From a virus, in the IMG/VR virus record IMGVR_UViG_3300044971_001793, positions 1 to 49,782 of that record: a stretch of 49,782 nt of DNA. One strand, written 5' to 3'. The notes beneath the pieces were generated by a model, which was not told the origin of the DNA, did not search any database, and saw only the letters and a list, made by a program, of their open reading frames with translations. Of this stretch, positions 2,548-12,752 are shown in pieces. Made by a program: the position numbers and the translations under genes. Numbering within the stretch: position 1 is the stretch's first letter; every line of letters starts with the position of its first letter.

Positions 2548-2753
2548 TAAAAAATTTAATAATATTATTTTTATTTTTCACTTTGGTGTCTTGTGAAGCT
2601 GAAAAAAGAATTTATGAACATTCATATACTGATGAATGGTATTATATTGACACGATGAGATTTCAGGTTTACAAAACCAAATCAGGTAAAAGATATATCC
2701 TTGTGTTAAATGAACAACAAACAAAATATAAACGACAATACATAAAATTATGA
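2544..2753 (+). CDS. Small phage lipoprotein
   Basis: A 69-residue protein with a classic lipoprotein signal: lysine at position 3, a hydrophobic stretch IILFLFFTL, then the lipobox LVSC with C17 as the lipidated residue. The mature part (about 52 residues) is charged and tyrosine-rich with no recognised domain. Phage lipoproteins of this size often act in superinfection exclusion or host surface change, but nothing here shows which. It overlaps its neighbours by 4 nt on both sides, so it is translated within the operon. Confidence 0.7.
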   Translation: MIKNLIILFLFFTLVSCEAEKRIYEHSYTDEWYYIDTMRFQVYKTKSGKRYILVLNEQQTKYKRQYIKL

Positions 2754-3151
2754 AAGAATTATTTTTATTAAGAGGATTACCGGGAAGTGGTAAATCAACA
2801 TTGGCAAAATCAATCGGTGGTATTCATATTGAAGCTGATATGTTTTTTATGAAAGATGGTGAATATCAATTTGATTTTACAAAATTAAAAGACGCTCACG
2901 CTTGGTGTCAAGAAAGTACTGAAAAAAGTATGAGAGCACTTGATAATCCTAAAATTGGGACTAAGAGAATTATTGTATCAAACACATTCACACAAGAGTG
3001 GGAAATGACACCTTATTTTGAATTAGCGGAAAAATATGGATACAGAGTTCATTCACTTATCGTAGAAAACAGACACGGAGGAGTTAATCAACACGGGGTT
3101 CCGGAAGATAAGTTGGAAATAATGAAAAATCGTTTTGAAGTTAAACTTTAA
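2750..3151 (+). CDS. P-loop kinase (polynucleotide kinase / zeta-toxin-like AAA_33)
   Basis: A 133-residue P-loop NTPase. The Walker A motif GLPGSGKS sits at residues 9-16 with K15 as the phosphate-binding lysine, followed by a short core containing IEADMFF, in which the aspartate resembles the substrate-binding acid of the Pnk and zeta-toxin families. An RIIVSNT segment fits the strand before the lid. The size matches a kinase domain alone, without the T4 Pnk phosphatase domain. The Rnl1-type ligase lies two genes downstream, so 5'-end phosphorylation of RNA is the most attractive role; an NMP kinase-like activity is not excluded. Confidence 0.7.
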   Translation: MKELFLLRGLPGSGKSTLAKSIGGIHIEADMFFMKDGEYQFDFTKLKDAHAWCQESTEKSMRALDNPKIGTKRIIVSNTFTQEWEMTPYFELAEKYGYRVHSLIVENRHGGVNQHGVPEDKLEIMKNRFEVKL

Positions 3152-3515: not shown

Positions 3516-4541
3516 ATGTTAGAAAAACTAAACAAATATTACGAAGACGGATTACTTTACAAACAAGTACATCCATCACTTCCATTAACCATATGGAATT
3601 ATACTGAAAAAGTTCAGTACGAGAACCTATGGGATGAGGTGACCCTGATGTGTAGAGGTTTAGTTACCGATAACGAAGGGAATATGGTTGCAATACCATT
3701 TCAAAAGTTCTTCAATATAGAAGAAGGTAAATTTACACCAACTGAAAATTTTGAAGTTTATGAAAAGATGGATGGTTCATTAGGGATTGTGTTTTGGTAT
3801 CAAGGTCAATGGGTGGTAGCCACTCGTGGTTCATTCACTTCTGACCAAGCAATCAAGGCGACAGAAATCCTTAAAAAATATAACAAAGATATTATGTTCA
3901 GACATTTAACTTTCTGTTTTGAAATTATCTATCCGGAGAACAGAATTGTTTTGGATTATGGTAATGATGAGAAACTAGTTCTATTAGGGACATTTGATAA
4001 GAACGGAAAAGAAACTGATTCTGAAATTTGGTCACAATGGGGGTTTGATGTGGTTAAAAAATATGACGGTATCACCGACTACAAACAACTAAAAGAAATG
4101 GTTAAAAACGACCAAGAAGGTTTTGTGGTAAAGTTCTCCAATGGAGATAGAATCAAAGTTAAAGGGGTTGAATATCTACGTCTTCACAAAATTATGACCA
4201 ACGTTACCACAACCGGTATTTGGGAGTATTTGAAAAATGGTGAGGATGTGATGGAGTTATTAAAAGATGTTCCGGATGAATTCTATAAAAAAATTCAAAA
4301 CTATGTTAAAGATTTGAGATATTCTTACTTCCAAATATCTGAAGATGCAGGTAAAAAGTTTGATTATATGATGTATGGGAAATATAACGACAAAGAACCT
4401 ATCACAGATAGAAAAGAGTTTGCTGAGTGGGTATCAACCCAACCAAAACATTTGTCAGGGATTCTATTTAGAATGTTAGATAAAAAAGATTACTCTGAAA
4501 TCATATGGAACCTAATCAGACCGGAATTTAAAAAATTGTAA
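3516..4541 (+). CDS. T4 Rnl1-type RNA ligase
   Basis: A 341-residue nucleotidyltransferase-fold ligase. Motif I is EKMDGS at residues 83-88 with K84 as the AMP-accepting lysine. CRGLV near 46-50 precedes it, TRGSF lies near 109, and a motif IV/V region reads EGFVVKFSNGDRIKVK near 200-216, ending in the expected K-x-K pair. The layout and length fit the Rnl1 family (T4 Rnl1 has 374 residues), which seals 5'-phosphate and 3'-OH RNA ends and repairs tRNAs cut by host anticodon nucleases. A strong terminator directly follows. Its position 2 kb before an island of abnormal tRNA genes is notable. Confidence 0.88.
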   Translation: MLEKLNKYYEDGLLYKQVHPSLPLTIWNYTEKVQYENLWDEVTLMCRGLVTDNEGNMVAIPFQKFFNIEEGKFTPTENFEVYEKMDGSLGIVFWYQGQWVVATRGSFTSDQAIKATEILKKYNKDIMFRHLTFCFEIIYPENRIVLDYGNDEKLVLLGTFDKNGKETDSEIWSQWGFDVVKKYDGITDYKQLKEMVKNDQEGFVVKFSNGDRIKVKGVEYLRLHKIMTNVTTTGIWEYLKNGEDVMELLKDVPDEFYKKIQNYVKDLRYSYFQISEDAGKKFDYMMYGKYNDKEPITDRKEFAEWVSTQPKHLSGILFRMLDKKDYSEIIWNLIRPEFKKL

Positions 4542-4615: not shown

Positions 4616-5221
4616 ATGAGTGTATCTATAATAGTAGCGTTTATCACGGGGGTTTTAGGTCCTATTCTATTATTATTCATTAAGAATAAATTAGAAAAAA
4701 AAGCAGAAAAGCCGGATATGGTATTGGAAACGTTAAAAGTCAGTGAGCTTGTAATGACCAAATTAGACCATATAAAGGAAGAATATAAAGGAGATAGAGT
4801 ATGGGTTGCACAATTCCACAATGGAGGTAATTTCTATCCAACCGGAAAATCAATGGCAAAGTTCAGTATTATATATGAATCTGTTGCTCCGTCAGTATCA
4901 TCAATACAAGGAAATTTTCACAATATACCTGTTAATTTATTTAGCCGTTCAATTAATCAATTATTAGAACATGATACAATTGAAATTCCTGATTTTAAAG
5001 ATGATACAGTAGCGACTTTTGGTTTAAAATATATTGCAGAAGATACCGGATGTAAATCAGGATATCTTTTTGCGATAAAATGTATTGAAGGTAGATTTAT
5101 TGGAATGTTAGGAATTGATTATACCAAGAAAAAAACAAAATTAAACGAAGAAACTGTAACTCAATTATTGGTTCAGTCAACATCAATTGGTGGTGTGTTA
5201 ATGAACCACTTACAACAATAA
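4616..5221 (+). CDS. Membrane-anchored GAF-like domain protein
   Basis: This 201-residue protein starts with one transmembrane helix (about residues 3-22, ending LLLFIKNKLEKK), then a soluble domain. The core reads DRVWVAQFHNGGNFYPTGKSMAKFSIIYE, with later strands SGYLFAIKC and RFIGMLGIDY, as in small-molecule-binding GAF folds. The anchor is N-terminal, so the domain should face the cytoplasm of the infected cell. The ligand is unknown. It is read from the first box of the late type and is followed after 1 nt by a peptidase gene, which suggests a shared late role at the envelope. Confidence 0.6.
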   Translation: MSVSIIVAFITGVLGPILLLFIKNKLEKKAEKPDMVLETLKVSELVMTKLDHIKEEYKGDRVWVAQFHNGGNFYPTGKSMAKFSIIYESVAPSVSSIQGNFHNIPVNLFSRSINQLLEHDTIEIPDFKDDTVATFGLKYIAEDTGCKSGYLFAIKCIEGRFIGMLGIDYTKKKTKLNEETVTQLLVQSTSIGGVLMNHLQQ

Positions 5222-6495: not shown

Positions 6496-6645
6496 TTGAG
6501 TAAGTGGGAGTGGTCAATCAACAACCCAAAGAAGTTTCAGGTAAAACTATATTTAAAAGAGGACGGCCGAGCCTATAATAGAGTAAGTAGGAAGTTAGTG
6601 TTTTTTAGGAAGATTGAGTCAGTTTTTAACATTAACGAAACATAG
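6496..6645 (+). CDS. Very small basic protein (TTG start)
   Basis: A 49-codon frame starts at a TTG at 6496, 7 nt after the upstream stop, and ends at TAG 6643-6645. The product contains NPKKFQVKLYLKEDG and RKLVFFRKIESVF, which look like real protein (alternating hydrophobic strands with basic residues) rather than chance. No ATG is available in this frame, so the start is uncertain. Its stop codon overlaps the first base of the tRNA-like sequence at 6644, so the RNA must be cut from the same transcript. Confidence 0.5.
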   Translation: MSKWEWSINNPKKFQVKLYLKEDGRAYNRVSRKLVFFRKIESVFNINET

Positions 6646-6735
6646 TCGGGTGGCGCAATTGGTAGAGCAAGTAGATGACACAGATACTGATTCTGTAAAT
6701 TTTCCGCTATACAGGTTCGAATCCTGTCCTGACTA
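6644..6735 (+). tRNA. tRNA-like RNA 1 (possible anticodon CTG, abnormal)
   Basis: The ends fold as a tRNA: AGTCGGG pairs with CCTGACT (7 bp, one G-U), the D arm reads GCGCAATTGGTAGAGC with one mismatch, and the T arm is ACAGG-TTCGAAT-CCTGT. Between D and T arms the layout is not normal. The best anticodon arm is ACAGA-TACTGAT-TCTGT (about 6680-6696), giving CTG, but the base before the anticodon is A instead of the near-universal U33. There are 10-11 extra bases before the arm and a 14-nt variable region after it. CCA is not encoded. It may be a degenerate tRNA-Gln or a non-decoding tRNA mimic. Confidence 0.6.
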
Positions 6736-6736
6736 C

Positions 6737-6823: not shown

Positions 6824-6999
6824 AGTCAGGTGGCGGAAAGGTAGACGATTCCCATCAACACACATAGGGAGATTCAGATTGTTGTGTGTATCGATTGTAG
6901 CACGTATTATAGCGTAAGTGACTGAAACTAAGGTCGTAGTATAATCGTAGTGTATAGGTGAAGCAATCACTCGTACAGGTTCAAATCCTGTCCTGACTA
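6824..6999 (+). tRNA. tRNA-like RNA 2 with tRNA-Leu-like 5' end and a long insertion
   Basis: AGTCAGG (6824-6830) pairs perfectly with CCTGACT (6992-6998). The 5' part continues TGGCGGAAAGGTAGACG, which closely resembles a tRNA-Leu D arm, and the 3' part has a clean T arm ACAGG-TTCAAAT-CCTGT. In between lie about 130 nt instead of the usual 30-45. That insert has its own pairing, including ACACACA with TGTGTGT and ATTATA with TATAAT. It is too short for a group I intron and contains no open frame. The total is about 175 nt. I cannot assign an anticodon; the conserved ends suggest RNase P and elongation-factor-type recognition is retained. Confidence 0.55.
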
Positions 7000-7000
7000 C

Positions 7001-7148
7001 TTAGCAAGGTGTAAACGATTAGGAAAATTCGTCACAGGTTTACATTAAGTTGCAGACGAACCGAAATGCTTACGGTTAACAGGGCTTAACTCATAAAGTC
7101 CAGAGAGCATAATCTAACGAGTGACAGATTGGAAAGACAATCAAATTT
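7001..7148 (+). other. Structured spacer between tRNA-like RNAs 2 and 3
   Basis: No gene. TGTAAAC and GTTTACA (7 bp) enclose an ACGA/TCGT helix, and AACCG/CGGTT forms a second hairpin. It has no open frame and looks like processed or structured RNA. Confidence 0.4.
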
Positions 7149-7250
7149 AGTCAGGAGACCATTGGTTGGTGGCACCTCCCCAAGGTTGAGTAACGATAAG
7201 GTCGACTCTTTATGGCAAAGCTGAAGCGGGTTCGAATCCTGTCCTGACTA
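7149..7250 (+). tRNA. tRNA-like RNA 3, same acceptor and T arm
   Basis: AGTCAGG (7149-7155) pairs perfectly with CCTGACT (7243-7249). The T arm GCGGG-TTCGAAT-CCTGT has two G-U pairs but an ideal loop. The 5' half lacks a normal D arm: ACCATTGGTTGGT and GGTGGCACC can form small hairpins instead. GAGT...ACTC around GTAACGATAAGGTCG replaces the anticodon arm. At about 101 nt it is too long for a class I tRNA. Its last 24 bases, apart from the T-arm 5' strand, are identical to RNA 1, so the three RNAs are a family. Confidence 0.5.
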
Positions 7251-7431: not shown

Positions 7432-7463
7432 TTTGACAGATTAAAATAAAAGTATTATCTTTG
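7432..7463 (+). promoter_or_regulatory. Bacteroidota-type promoter of the permuted tRNA transcript
   Basis: TTTGACA at 7432-7438 and TATCTTTG at 7456-7463 (20 bp between TTTG and the -7 box). Transcription should start near 7470, about 30 nt before the permuted tRNA-like RNA. Confidence 0.85.
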
Positions 7464-7501
7464 TAGAAGAAATAAAGTTCTTAAAAATATTGAAAATATA
7501 G

Positions 7502-7574
7502 GTGGACGTTGTGTCGAGGTTTCAAATCCCTCCGGTTTTAACACCGTAGCTCAGATGGTAGAGCATACGTCCAC
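7502..7574 (+). tRNA. Circularly permuted tRNA-like gene
   Basis: The tRNA halves are in reverse order. First come the anticodon-stem 3' strand GTGGACGT (7502-7509), a 5-nt variable loop, a T arm (GAGGT-TTCAAAT-CCCTC, one mismatch) and acceptor 3' strand CGGTTTT (7533-7539). Directly after come acceptor 5' strand AACACCG (7540-7546), TA, a textbook D arm GCTCAGATGGTAGAGC (7549-7564), A, and the anticodon-stem 5' strand, ending in ACGTCCAC (7567-7574). The acceptor strands pair in 6 of 7 positions. GTGGACGT and ACGTCCAC are perfect 8-bp complements, so the anticodon side is the open end and no anticodon loop is encoded inside. Spacings (variable loop of 5, two bases between acceptor and D stem) are those of a real tRNA. 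Confidence 0.78.
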
Positions 7575-7585
7575 TAACTTATAAT

Positions 7586-7677
7586 GGTATTGTAGCTCAG
7601 TGGGAGATTCGTCTTCCTTTGGTAGAGCAGGAGTAACGAAAGACTCTGTGCCGTAGGTTCGAACCCTTCCGATACCA
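7586..7677 (+). tRNA. tRNA-like gene with a UUCG hairpin inserted in the D loop
   Basis: The acceptor GGTATTG (7586-7592) pairs with CGATACC (7670-7676). TA, then GCTCAG...TTGGTAGAGC is the usual D arm, but it is split by GGGAGATTCGTCTTCC (7602-7617), a perfect 6-bp stem (one G-U) capped by a UUCG tetraloop. The T arm is GTAGG-TTCGAAC-CCTTC with one mismatch. The apparent anticodon stem GGAGT/ACTCT closes an 8-nt loop, AACGAAAG, with no U33, so no normal anticodon can be read. It lies 11 nt after the permuted RNA on the same transcript. Confidence 0.65.
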
Positions 7678-7683
7678 CAAAAA

Positions 7684-7943
7684 TATAAACCATAATTTGG
7701 CGGAGGATGGAACTACGAATTTATTTGTAGTAAAGTATCGTCGGGTGAGAGACCCGGATGGATAGAAGGTAGACAAGTAATCCTAGACACGTCCGCAGAT
7801 TCCTTCTCTTGGGTTTATAGATTTATTCTGTGATAAGATAGCAGATAGACCTATTACAGCAGACTATCCCGTAGGGAGTGCGAGTTTTAGGTAGAATAGA
7901 ATGGGTGACCTACGAATGAGTAAATCTTAAGGTCTTATCACAG
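7684..7943 (+). ncRNA. Two-domain pseudoknotted RNA of unknown class
   Basis: No open frame, but strong long-range pairing. TATAAACC (7684-7691) pairs with GGTTTATA (7812-7819). Inside it, GCGGA (7700-7704) pairs with TCCGC (7792-7796) while AGAAGG (7764-7769) pairs with CCTTCT (7802-7807); these two helices cross, so they form a pseudoknot. CGGGT-GAGAG-ACCCG is a local hairpin. A second domain is closed by CTGTGATAAGA (7828-7838) with TCTTATCACAG (7933-7943), a perfect 11-bp helix. The A-rich stretch after it ends the structured part. I see no RNase P or other known-class signature. Confidence 0.6.
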
Positions 7944-7966
7944 ATTAAAAAAAAATAAAAAAAAAG

Positions 7967-8116: not shown

Positions 8117-9060
8117 ACAAATTAGGGAAACCTAATACGTTCTTAGAAATTTTAGATTATCCATCAGGATGTTGATGATGAGACCCTCGGGTTGATTCTG
8201 AGATAACTGAAAAACGATAATGGGTGGTATATCATCCTTAAATAAACCGGGAAACCGGGATAAAGTGAATCTGTTGTGTTAACAGGTTTGCGGTCTCAGA
8301 AATGGGACTCGAGTATACAAGTCGGATATCGCCTAACCTTTAGTACTGAGGGAAACTCTGTAAGGAAAGTGGTTGGGTGACCGGGAGATGTGGGTCTTTC
8401 GGTTGAGATTGGAAAATCAATAAGAATAACCGATAGGAATCAAGTGAGAAATAGGGTCATCCAACCTTATAATTGCGGGTTCCAATATGAGAGAAATCTT
8501 AAAGTCGAAAGACAAGATAAGTAACAGGTGGTGCTGTCATTATCCTTATCAAATATCTACCAAGATTTTGATTCGAAGAATTCTTAAAATATGAGAGATG
8601 GGAATTTCTACCGGGTAGATTGGTATTTCGTCGTCCAAAAGATGATGAAGCCTAAGACAAACCTCTACTTGGACAAATCCACAACACAAACCAAACTTTT
8701 CAATAGGTGAAAAACTAACAGAAAAACGGAAAAGTGTTTGTCAGGTGATAACGAAAGTTGCTTCCATAGTCACGGGCTGTCCGTGGCACGAAAGAACCCC
8801 AAGTTCAATCGTATTTTTACCAAAAACCTCTACGGAGTCGAATCCGGAGTCAGGTCGCAAGCTTGAAGAGAGTAGAGTAGTAAGAGAGTAGTTATTATCT
8901 TAAGGAGTAATTGGTCTAACCAATTAGCAATGAGGATTACCACTCAAAAGGTGGTGGAAACGAAGGGAAACAATAATCCTTCTAAAGATTCTTACTAAGA
9001 CGAGTATTCTCATCGTATTAAGCCAAAAAGGTAACTCATTTATTTGTGTTACCTTTTTTT
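8117..9060 (+). ncRNA. Large structured RNA, about 940 nt (GOLLD/ROOL-like or new class)
   Basis: This stretch has its own promoter and terminator, no open frame worth calling, and visibly higher G+C (about 40-50 % per line) than its surroundings. Local helices are many and well formed: ATTAGG-GAAA-CCTAAT at 8121-8136, CCGG-GAAA-CCGG near 8250, GTC-GAAA-GAC near 8506, CACGG-GCTGT-CCGTG near 8773, TAATTGGT-CTA-ACCAATTA near 8908, and CCAC/GGTGG near 8942. GNRA tetraloops recur. Size, phage setting, tRNA-like neighbours and G+C contrast are what is known for the giant phage RNAs GOLLD and ROOL. I cannot confirm membership from memory, and a new class is possible. Confidence 0.75.
9025..9060 (+). 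terminator. Rho-independent terminator of the large RNA
   Basis: AAAAAGGTAAC and GTTACCTTTTTT form a strong stem with a 12-nt loop and a T run. It also ends 3 nt before the convergent HNH gene and may serve both directions. Confidence 0.92.
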
Positions 9061-10162: not shown

Positions 10163-10438
10163 ATGAAAAAATTAATCACAGAAAATTGGGAAAGAAAATA
10201 TACCGGAGAATTACGGGTTAGGAAAGTATTGTCTATATTACCATTTATTATTGTCAATGGTGAAGATAGTGATTTTCATTGGACCGGTAAATGGTTCAAG
10301 TATGTTACAATTCAGGAACAAAAAGTGAAAGACCGTTATTTAGAGTTTGATGATGGATGGAATTACCAACATTATTGGGGAGAATGGGAGTTAAGTTGGG
10401 TATTAACCAAAATTATAGAAGATGAAAAAGTCAATTAA
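10163..10438 (+). CDS. Tryptophan-rich small protein, unknown function
   Basis: This 91-residue protein is not recognised. It is unusually rich in aromatic residues: WERKYTGE, FHWTGKWFKYV, DDGWNYQHYWGEWELSWVL. The pattern suggests a compact beta fold. It is read from a near-leaderless promoter and overlaps the smpB start by 17 nt, so the two are translationally coupled. It may therefore act with SmpB or tmRNA, but only position supports that. Confidence 0.6.
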   Translation: MKKLITENWERKYTGELRVRKVLSILPFIIVNGEDSDFHWTGKWFKYVTIQEQKVKDRYLEFDDGWNYQHYWGEWELSWVLTKIIEDEKVN

Positions 10439-10859
10439 TATTGTCAATAAGAAAGCCAAGTTTGAGTATTCATTCTTGGAAACTCTAATTGTGGGAATCA
10501 AATTAGTTGGTTCAGAGGTGAAGTCCATCCGTCAGGGGAAGGTGTCCATATCTGAAGGGTATTGTTATTTTAATGATGGGGAATTGTTTATAAAAGGGAT
10601 GAACATTTCCGATTATGGTTATGGGTCATTCCACGAGACCATTAAAGATAGAAAACTATTGGCCAAGAAAAAAGAACTAAATAAGTTGGAACGTGAGTTA
10701 ATCAACGGGACAACCATCATTCCTTATCGTGTCTTCATAAATGATACCGGATTGGTTAAGATGGAGATTGCTCTTGCCAAAGGGAAAAAACTCCACGATA
10801 AACGAGATAGTATAAAATCTCGTGATATTGAAAGAGATATGAAAAGGGACTTGAAATAG
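10422..10859 (+). CDS. smpB: SsrA-binding protein SmpB
   Basis: The 145-residue product matches SmpB along its whole length: NKKAKFEYSFLETLIVGIKLVGSEVKSIRQGK at the N-terminus, GEL(F/W)IKGMNI in the middle, RKLLAKKKELNKLE, then IPYRVFINDTGLVKMEIALAKGKKLHDKRDSIKSRD and a basic helical tail. SmpB binds the tRNA-like part of tmRNA and places it in the A site of stalled ribosomes; the basic C-terminal tail probes the empty mRNA channel and is present here. Length is close to bacterial SmpB (about 150-160). A matching tmRNA gene lies 1.5 kb downstream, so the phage carries both parts. A terminator overlaps the stop codon. Confidence 0.95.
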   Translation: MKKSINIVNKKAKFEYSFLETLIVGIKLVGSEVKSIRQGKVSISEGYCYFNDGELFIKGMNISDYGYGSFHETIKDRKLLAKKKELNKLERELINGTTIIPYRVFINDTGLVKMEIALAKGKKLHDKRDSIKSRDIERDMKRDLK

Positions 10860-12356: not shown

Positions 12357-12752
12357 TGGTGGAAGTGCGGAGACTCGAACTCCGGTGTTACTTGTATTAC
12401 CTATTAAGGACTACACGTTTAGGTCATTGTTTAAGCTAACAATCCGAAATTTCACAATTCCCTTATTTTTTGAGTGGTTCGGTTTACTGAGAACTAATCT
12501 TCCACTTGTTTCTTTTCGGGTAGAAACCACACCTTTGTAGGGACTTCTGTTGCTAGGTTATATGTCCACCGACCCCGTGTTGTGTTTCCGCTTAGGCTAC
12601 TACAACTTCTTCAGCACGGATTAAACCGATAGCTGACATTTTGTCTAAAACGTTTCCGTTTACTTTTCGTACTCCATAGATTTAAGTGATAGGAAACTTC
12701 TCACTACGTGCCCCGAATAACTATTACGAATAGTCAATTCCATGTCACTCCC
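12357..12752 (-). ncRNA. ssrA: tmRNA with a non-canonical tag
   Basis: On the minus strand the RNA starts GGGAGTG (12752-12746) and ends CACTTCCACCA, with CCA encoded. The acceptor pairs 7 of 7, with the third pair G-U, the alanine identity mark. The T arm is CGGAG-TTCGAGT-CTCCG. Near the 5' end GGAATTGAC stands where tmRNAs carry their conserved GGnUUCGAC. The reading frame ends at TAA 12594-12592 and gives AIGLIRAEEVVVA if resumed at the GCT at 12633, or KMSAIGLIRAEEVVVA if resumed after UUAGAC, which resembles the UUAGUC before the E. coli resume codon. The tag ends VVVA, not ALAA. Downstream sequence contains paired segments expected of pseudoknots. The length of 396 nt is normal for tmRNA. 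Partner smpB is at 10422. Confidence 0.93.

Follow-up and report, generated by a model that had tools for sequence, protein, structure and literature searches.

The window analysed here is an IMG/VR virus record of 49,782 bases that encodes a terminase, a portal protein, a head protease and a major head protein. Its plus strand also carries genes for a T4 Rnl1-type RNA ligase (3516-4541; PF09511, E 1e-18; phrog_562, E 3e-67), a P-loop kinase with an AAA_33 domain that may be polynucleotide-kinase-like (2750-3151; PF13671, E 1e-10) and a cREC cyclic-phosphate processing receiver domain protein (633-1103; PF20274, E 4.5e-19). The ligase gene lies about 3 kb upstream of the tRNA-like element described below, and the P-loop kinase, a calcineurin-like phosphoesterase and the cREC protein are encoded farther upstream. 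An RNA-repair gene set of this kind has been reported for jumbo phages (PMC7824862). The phage also encodes a tmRNA (12357-12752, minus strand) and SmpB (10422-10859, plus strand).

ARAGORN, and Rfam at its gathering score, called tRNA-like genes at 6644-6736 and 7586-7678 and none at 7502-7574. It is this last interval, on the plus strand, that the sequence-only reading had described as a permuted tRNA gene. The element consists of an 8-bp outer stem around a T-arm, a capped acceptor-like hairpin and a D-arm, an arrangement resembling the tRNA-mimic module of YrlA-type (Y-RNA-like) RNAs. The outer stem pairs GTGGACGT (7502-7509) with ACGTCCAC (7567-7574) in a plain helix without bulges. In the T-arm (7516-7532), a 4-bp stem (GAGG/CCTC) that is invariant among seven distinct homologs closes a 9-nt loop (TTTCAAATC). 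The acceptor-like hairpin (7533-7546) reads CGGT-TTTAAC-ACCG and has a length of 12, 14 or 16 nt in homologs, and the D-arm (7549-7564; GCTC-AGATGGTA-GAGC), with G18 and G19 for elbow docking, is near-invariant in sequence. The predicted RNA fold has the same form (−23.6 kcal/mol, z −2.9), and 2 of 200 shuffled sequences gave an equally good fold.

The coordinates, the sequence, the 8-bp outer stem and the abutting acceptor-like strands (CGGTTTT at 7533-7539 and AACACCG at 7540-7546) given in the sequence-only reading were exact on re-checking, and its account of a tRNA-like element in a phage, with the T-arm half ahead of the D-arm half, is borne out by sequence and fold. Two of its statements held in part. 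The arms and their order are present, but 'canonical' is not quite accurate for the loops: the T-stem has four good pairs only, the 53-61 pair being U-C in the window and A-C in others, and G53-C61 is absent. Similarly, the strands proposed as a 7-bp acceptor do abut and pair at six of seven positions in the window, but the remaining one is a C-U mismatch and there is no space for a discriminator base.

Conservation and neighbouring tRNA-like RNAs

We collected relatives through the RNA ligase gene and DNA patterns and obtained further copies with a covariance model. Both halves of the element, whose lack of conservation in relatives would have counted against the sequence-only reading, were found in about 20 related phage contigs, with seven distinct sequences in the first set. 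In these seven, 98.6% of cells were paired, compared with 31-61% when the 3' partners were slid. The outer stem exists in two versions, GTGGACGT/ACGTCCAC in the window and GTGGGTGT/ACACCCAC in the other subgroup, and two of its pairs change on both sides; such independent changes are few, yet they fit pairing only. Because of these compensatory pairs and the pairing statistics, we regard the element as a real structured RNA with apparent selection on its outer stem. Taken by itself the stem is modest evidence, a 9-bp helix in free register being found also at a few tandem-tRNA junctions. The module was not found in more distant relatives, namely those with homologs of the gene at 4616-5221 at 67-76% identity.

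Tandem tRNAs also bear on the explanation that the element arose by chance where two tRNA genes meet, or is what remains of a decaying tRNA. At tandem tRNAs one does see YrlA-like matches, of 20-32 bits, and matches to the module. However, neither ARAGORN nor Rfam gives a tRNA that includes either half of the element, the outer stem shows compensatory changes, and the element is retained across the contigs although the lengths around it vary, so that we consider this explanation exceedingly improbable.

Upstream of the module by about 40 nt is a Bacteroidota-type promoter-like site, TTTGACA-N-TATCTTTG (7432-7463, plus strand), and the sequence at this place is similar in most relatives. The pattern used, TTTG-N17-22-TANNTTTG, has 10 matches in the window where 4.5 are expected by chance. 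From this site, one presumed transcript would include both the module and the tRNA-like element that starts at 7586. The latter (7586-7678, plus strand; RF00005, 37.7 bits) was called tRNA-Thr by ARAGORN. It has an extra hairpin in the D-loop, kept by compensatory changes in 13 homologs, and an 8-nt loop at the anticodon position (AACGAAAG). In the 13 homologs, this loop contains a conserved GAAA (for example AACGAAAG and TCTGAAAA) and mostly lacks U33, and the RNA is, judging from these features, probably not an ordinary decoding tRNA. Three more tRNA-like elements lie at 6644-6736, ~6825-7000 and ~7148-7250; they share a near-identical acceptor (AGTC[AG]GG/CCTGACT) and T-arm and have abnormal middles, one with a large insertion.

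Several relatives carry a second, diverged permuted module downstream of the tRNA-like element (L009:14996-15080, L068:1695-1779, L007:20867-20951, L028:14730-14815 and L011:14864-14949), which is absent from the window. Its outer stem is 11 bp long, its T-arm is canonical and its acceptor-like stem, of 4 bp, carries a long loop; the L009 copy has a change on both sides of the first D-stem pair, from G-C to A-U. These copies, the usual position of the module some 10-13 nt ahead of the tRNA-like element and the single promoter before both are consistent with a tRNA-derived leader or processing domain that evolved separately in this clade and would stabilise or process the neighbouring tRNA-like RNAs in cis. 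We think this quite unlikely. L009/L012 and L020 keep both RNAs despite about 150 nt between them, in L062 the module neighbours a tRNA-like element of another kind, and the YrlA-like layout would be mere coincidence.

Comparison with circularly permuted tRNA genes

Circularly permuted tRNA genes of red and green algae and of Thermofilum depend on BHB motifs and the tRNA-splicing endonuclease (PMC3978253). Their 3' half stands before the 5' half, as in the phage element. They differ from it in having full acceptor strands, an intervening sequence, BHB junctions and a charged tRNA as product, whereas the phage element has a short capped hairpin. In a true permuted gene of this phage, the phage RNA ligase would circularise the transcript at the outer stem, and RNase P and a 3' nuclease would open it between the acceptor strands. 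The order of the halves, the six of seven acceptor pairs in the window's own copy and the T4-type RNA ligase and kinase about 3-4 kb upstream are in keeping with such a gene.

The homologs argue otherwise. The hairpin of contigs L002, L054 and L061 is CGGATTTATCCG (CGGA-TTTA-TCCG), with 4 bp and a 4-nt loop; because this segment is 12 nt long, it cannot hold two 7-nt acceptor strands. Only CGG/CCG pairs in L009 and L011, and the distal bases of the 14-nt versions are unpaired. Covariation of the outer stem extends over positions where an anticodon loop would be expected, and no BHB-like junction is evident, the stem being a plain helix. We also un-permuted five homologs, applying all trims of 0-5 nt on each side with CCA optional. 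ARAGORN accepted none of the 216 versions of each homolog (0/1,080 in total), while all four ordinary phage tRNAs used as a control were recognised. With a hairpin that is too short, no G53-C61 in the T-stem, negative ARAGORN results and the same layout as YrlA, we rejected the permuted tRNA gene, a reading that is strongly disfavoured and in our view highly improbable. The proposed maturation, in which the RNA would be cut at the acceptor and rejoined at its outer ends, is thus not supported, given the short capped hairpin and the unrecognised un-permuted versions.

Relation to YrlA and to Ro-linked modules

The tRNA-like domain of YrlA, composed of D, T and acceptor arms, sits on a basal stem. 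The stem binds Rsr; the tRNA-like domain binds PNPase and is modified by DusA and TruB (PMC8394870, whose text refers to PDB 6CU1 for the structure of Salmonella YrlA). Mycobacteriophages and other phages are also reported to have Y RNAs (PMC12282133 and PMC7765460, which cite Chen 2014 and Sim & Wolin 2018). Given this layout of YrlA and these phage Y RNAs, the permuted order marks the element as belonging to an established class that phages are already known to carry, and searches for permuted tRNAs in bacteria and phages need to have Y RNAs excluded first.

At a relaxed threshold, the Rfam YrlA model (RF02553) matched 7489-7588 with 38.9 bits (E 2e-6), short of its gathering score of 69, and relatives gave at most 41.5 bits, also under that score. 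With E up to 1 allowed, the model also hit 12 of 14 control genomes, scoring 20-32 bits at tandem tRNAs. Since weak YrlA matches arise at tandem tRNAs, we carried the testing beyond the RF02553 score. A covariance model built from this phage RNA family (R1) scored the bacterial YrlA loci L264, L278 and L206, all of which pass the Rfam cut-off, at 39-49 bits; Ro-linked phage modules reached 54.8 bits and tandem-tRNA junctions at most 30.5 bits. With a module-only model of Ro-linked Y RNAs (R2), the window scored 55.6 bits and some tandem-tRNA junctions 56-64 bits, and we did not use R2 as evidence because these junctions score as high as the window.

The phage element and YrlA have in common the order of T-arm, acceptor-like hairpin and D-arm on a basal stem, the lack of an anticodon, mimicry of the tRNA elbow and reciprocal covariance-model matches. 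In contrast to YrlA, the phage element has a plain 8-bp outer stem, a shorter hairpin (3-4 bp), a 4-bp T-stem with a 9-nt loop, no GAATGC/ACTAC Ro-side motif and no Ro gene that we could find, and it stays below the Rfam gathering cut-off. We conclude with good confidence that the element is a Y-RNA-type tRNA mimic and not a tRNA gene. Common descent with YrlA is, from the sequence comparison, likely. Because R2 cannot separate Y RNAs from tandem-tRNA junctions, the resemblance could instead have come about by convergence from tRNA.

To place the element among other modules, we used a general pattern of a T-loop followed, after 10-18 nt, by a D-arm. Viral contigs gave 92 matching stretches and bacterial genomes at least 119, the gap being mostly a capped hairpin of 4-7 bp. 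In 22 aligned viral modules, mostly from the 32 other viral records with a module, the hairpin was paired in 100% of cells, a percentage partly due to the choice of capped modules, and showed many compensatory changes. Ro/TROVE is encoded in 26 of those 32 records, and the Ro gene adjoins the module in L146, L102 and L141. TROVE proteins are known in jumbo phages (PMC7824862). Module and TROVE also occur together in Bacteroidota genomes (L195 Chitinophaga, L256 Tannerella).

Several records that contain TROVE (L102, L146, L141, L175, L195, L256 and L281) have a widespread form of the module with a GTTACTTC-type 5' side and often an extra hairpin. RF02553 at its gathering score made no call in the tested loci with this 5' side, and the Rfam YrlA model at its cut-off therefore misses the tested Ro-linked phage and bacterial modules. 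Modules with this 5' side are possibly an unregistered Y RNA family. Such modules of phages and bacteria (L146, L102, L141 and L195 among them) share with the phage element the order of the module and the capped hairpin, and they too occur in phages, but they differ from it in the TROVE/Ro gene in the record, the longer 5' side and the frequent extra hairpin.

By comparison, Pfam TROVE had no match in 16 records from the clade or related to it. A phage-Ro profile, which as a control recovers the Ro of Pseudomonas (8.7e-67) and that of Sphingomonas (1.4e-64), had none in 19 clade records, three of them of 308-322 kb, although these records are fragments and Ro could lie elsewhere. A putative Ro-side 5' motif (ACTNC or GAATGC), as read from the loci collected here, stands upstream of 71% of capped modules and 10% of tandem-tRNA junctions; none of the 12 clade members has it. 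The long Ro-binding stem of the 5' and 3' sides is absent as well; there is an 8-bp stem only, with no long conserved basal stem below. The RNA of this clade appears, from these comparisons, to have lost, or never to have had, the Ro-binding side and the Ro gene, unlike most Y RNAs. We consider it probable that YrlA-type identity and Ro-less status hold jointly.

A Y RNA of this kind might still work with a host partner, Ro or PNPase; the module would then tether host PNPase or Rsr and so redirect RNA decay. The binding of PNPase by the tRNA-like domain of YrlA (PMC8394870), the link of most other phage modules to Ro and the Bacteroidota genomes that hold both module and TROVE (the Chitinophaga and Tannerella genomes above) would fit this. 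The missing Ro-side motif in the clade members and the lack of a long conserved basal stem under the 8 bp speak against it; we judge a host-supplied partner to be unlikely.

Phage Y RNAs are already known, and it is the Ro-less form that is new. tRNA-mimic Y RNAs are common in phages, where they usually stand beside a Ro gene, and one clade of jumbo phages has the mimic apparently without Ro and near RNA-repair genes. This clade offers a natural setting in which to ask how the tRNA-like portion of such an RNA acts alone, and the claim of a permuted tRNA in a phage of bacteria gives way to a testable one, that a Y-RNA mimic is kept without Ro.

Proposed action and adjacent structured RNAs

Because its acceptor end is capped and it has no anticodon loop, the RNA can be neither charged nor used in decoding, and it therefore probably acts through proteins that recognise the tRNA elbow. 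Its T- and D-loops would dock as they do in tRNA and YrlA. Bound to such proteins, the RNA could serve as a decoy or competitor for enzymes that cut or modify tRNA, beside the RNA-repair genes of the phage. For Salmonella, it has been suggested that YrlA may act competitively against an anticodon nuclease (PMC7790460). The broader role of an elbow decoy or scaffold is probably the right one; decoy function in particular, suggested by analogy with YrlA and by the neighbouring genes, we put forward tentatively, as a possibility short of an even chance. More speculative, and in our estimate doubtful, is the idea that Bacteroidota jumbo phages have a lineage of Y-RNA-like tRNA mimics independent of Ro. 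These mimics would belong to a clustered set of tRNA-like RNAs that do not decode, comprising the permuted module, its second copy and the D-loop-hairpin RNA without a normal anticodon, and this set, alongside the RNA-repair genes, would act as decoys for tRNA-targeting defence enzymes.

Further structured RNAs lie close to the element. Between the tRNA-like element at 7586-7678 and a GOLLD RNA (8611-9016, plus strand; RF02032, 312 bits), the stretch at ~7690-7950 has a long stable fold (−69.5 kcal/mol), parts of which recur in relatives (TTCTGTGATAAGATAGCAGATAGACCTATTACAGCAGA). A blast of the region against named phages matched nothing except the GOLLD part. The GOLLD region (8220-9016) has blastn similarity to 640-kb uncultured phages. 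As this similarity reaches some 400 nt beyond the 5' end of the Rfam model, the GOLLD 5' domain is conserved too. Related phages also carry a freshwater-1 RNA (RF02979; L336:3937-3998 and L381:13830-13892).
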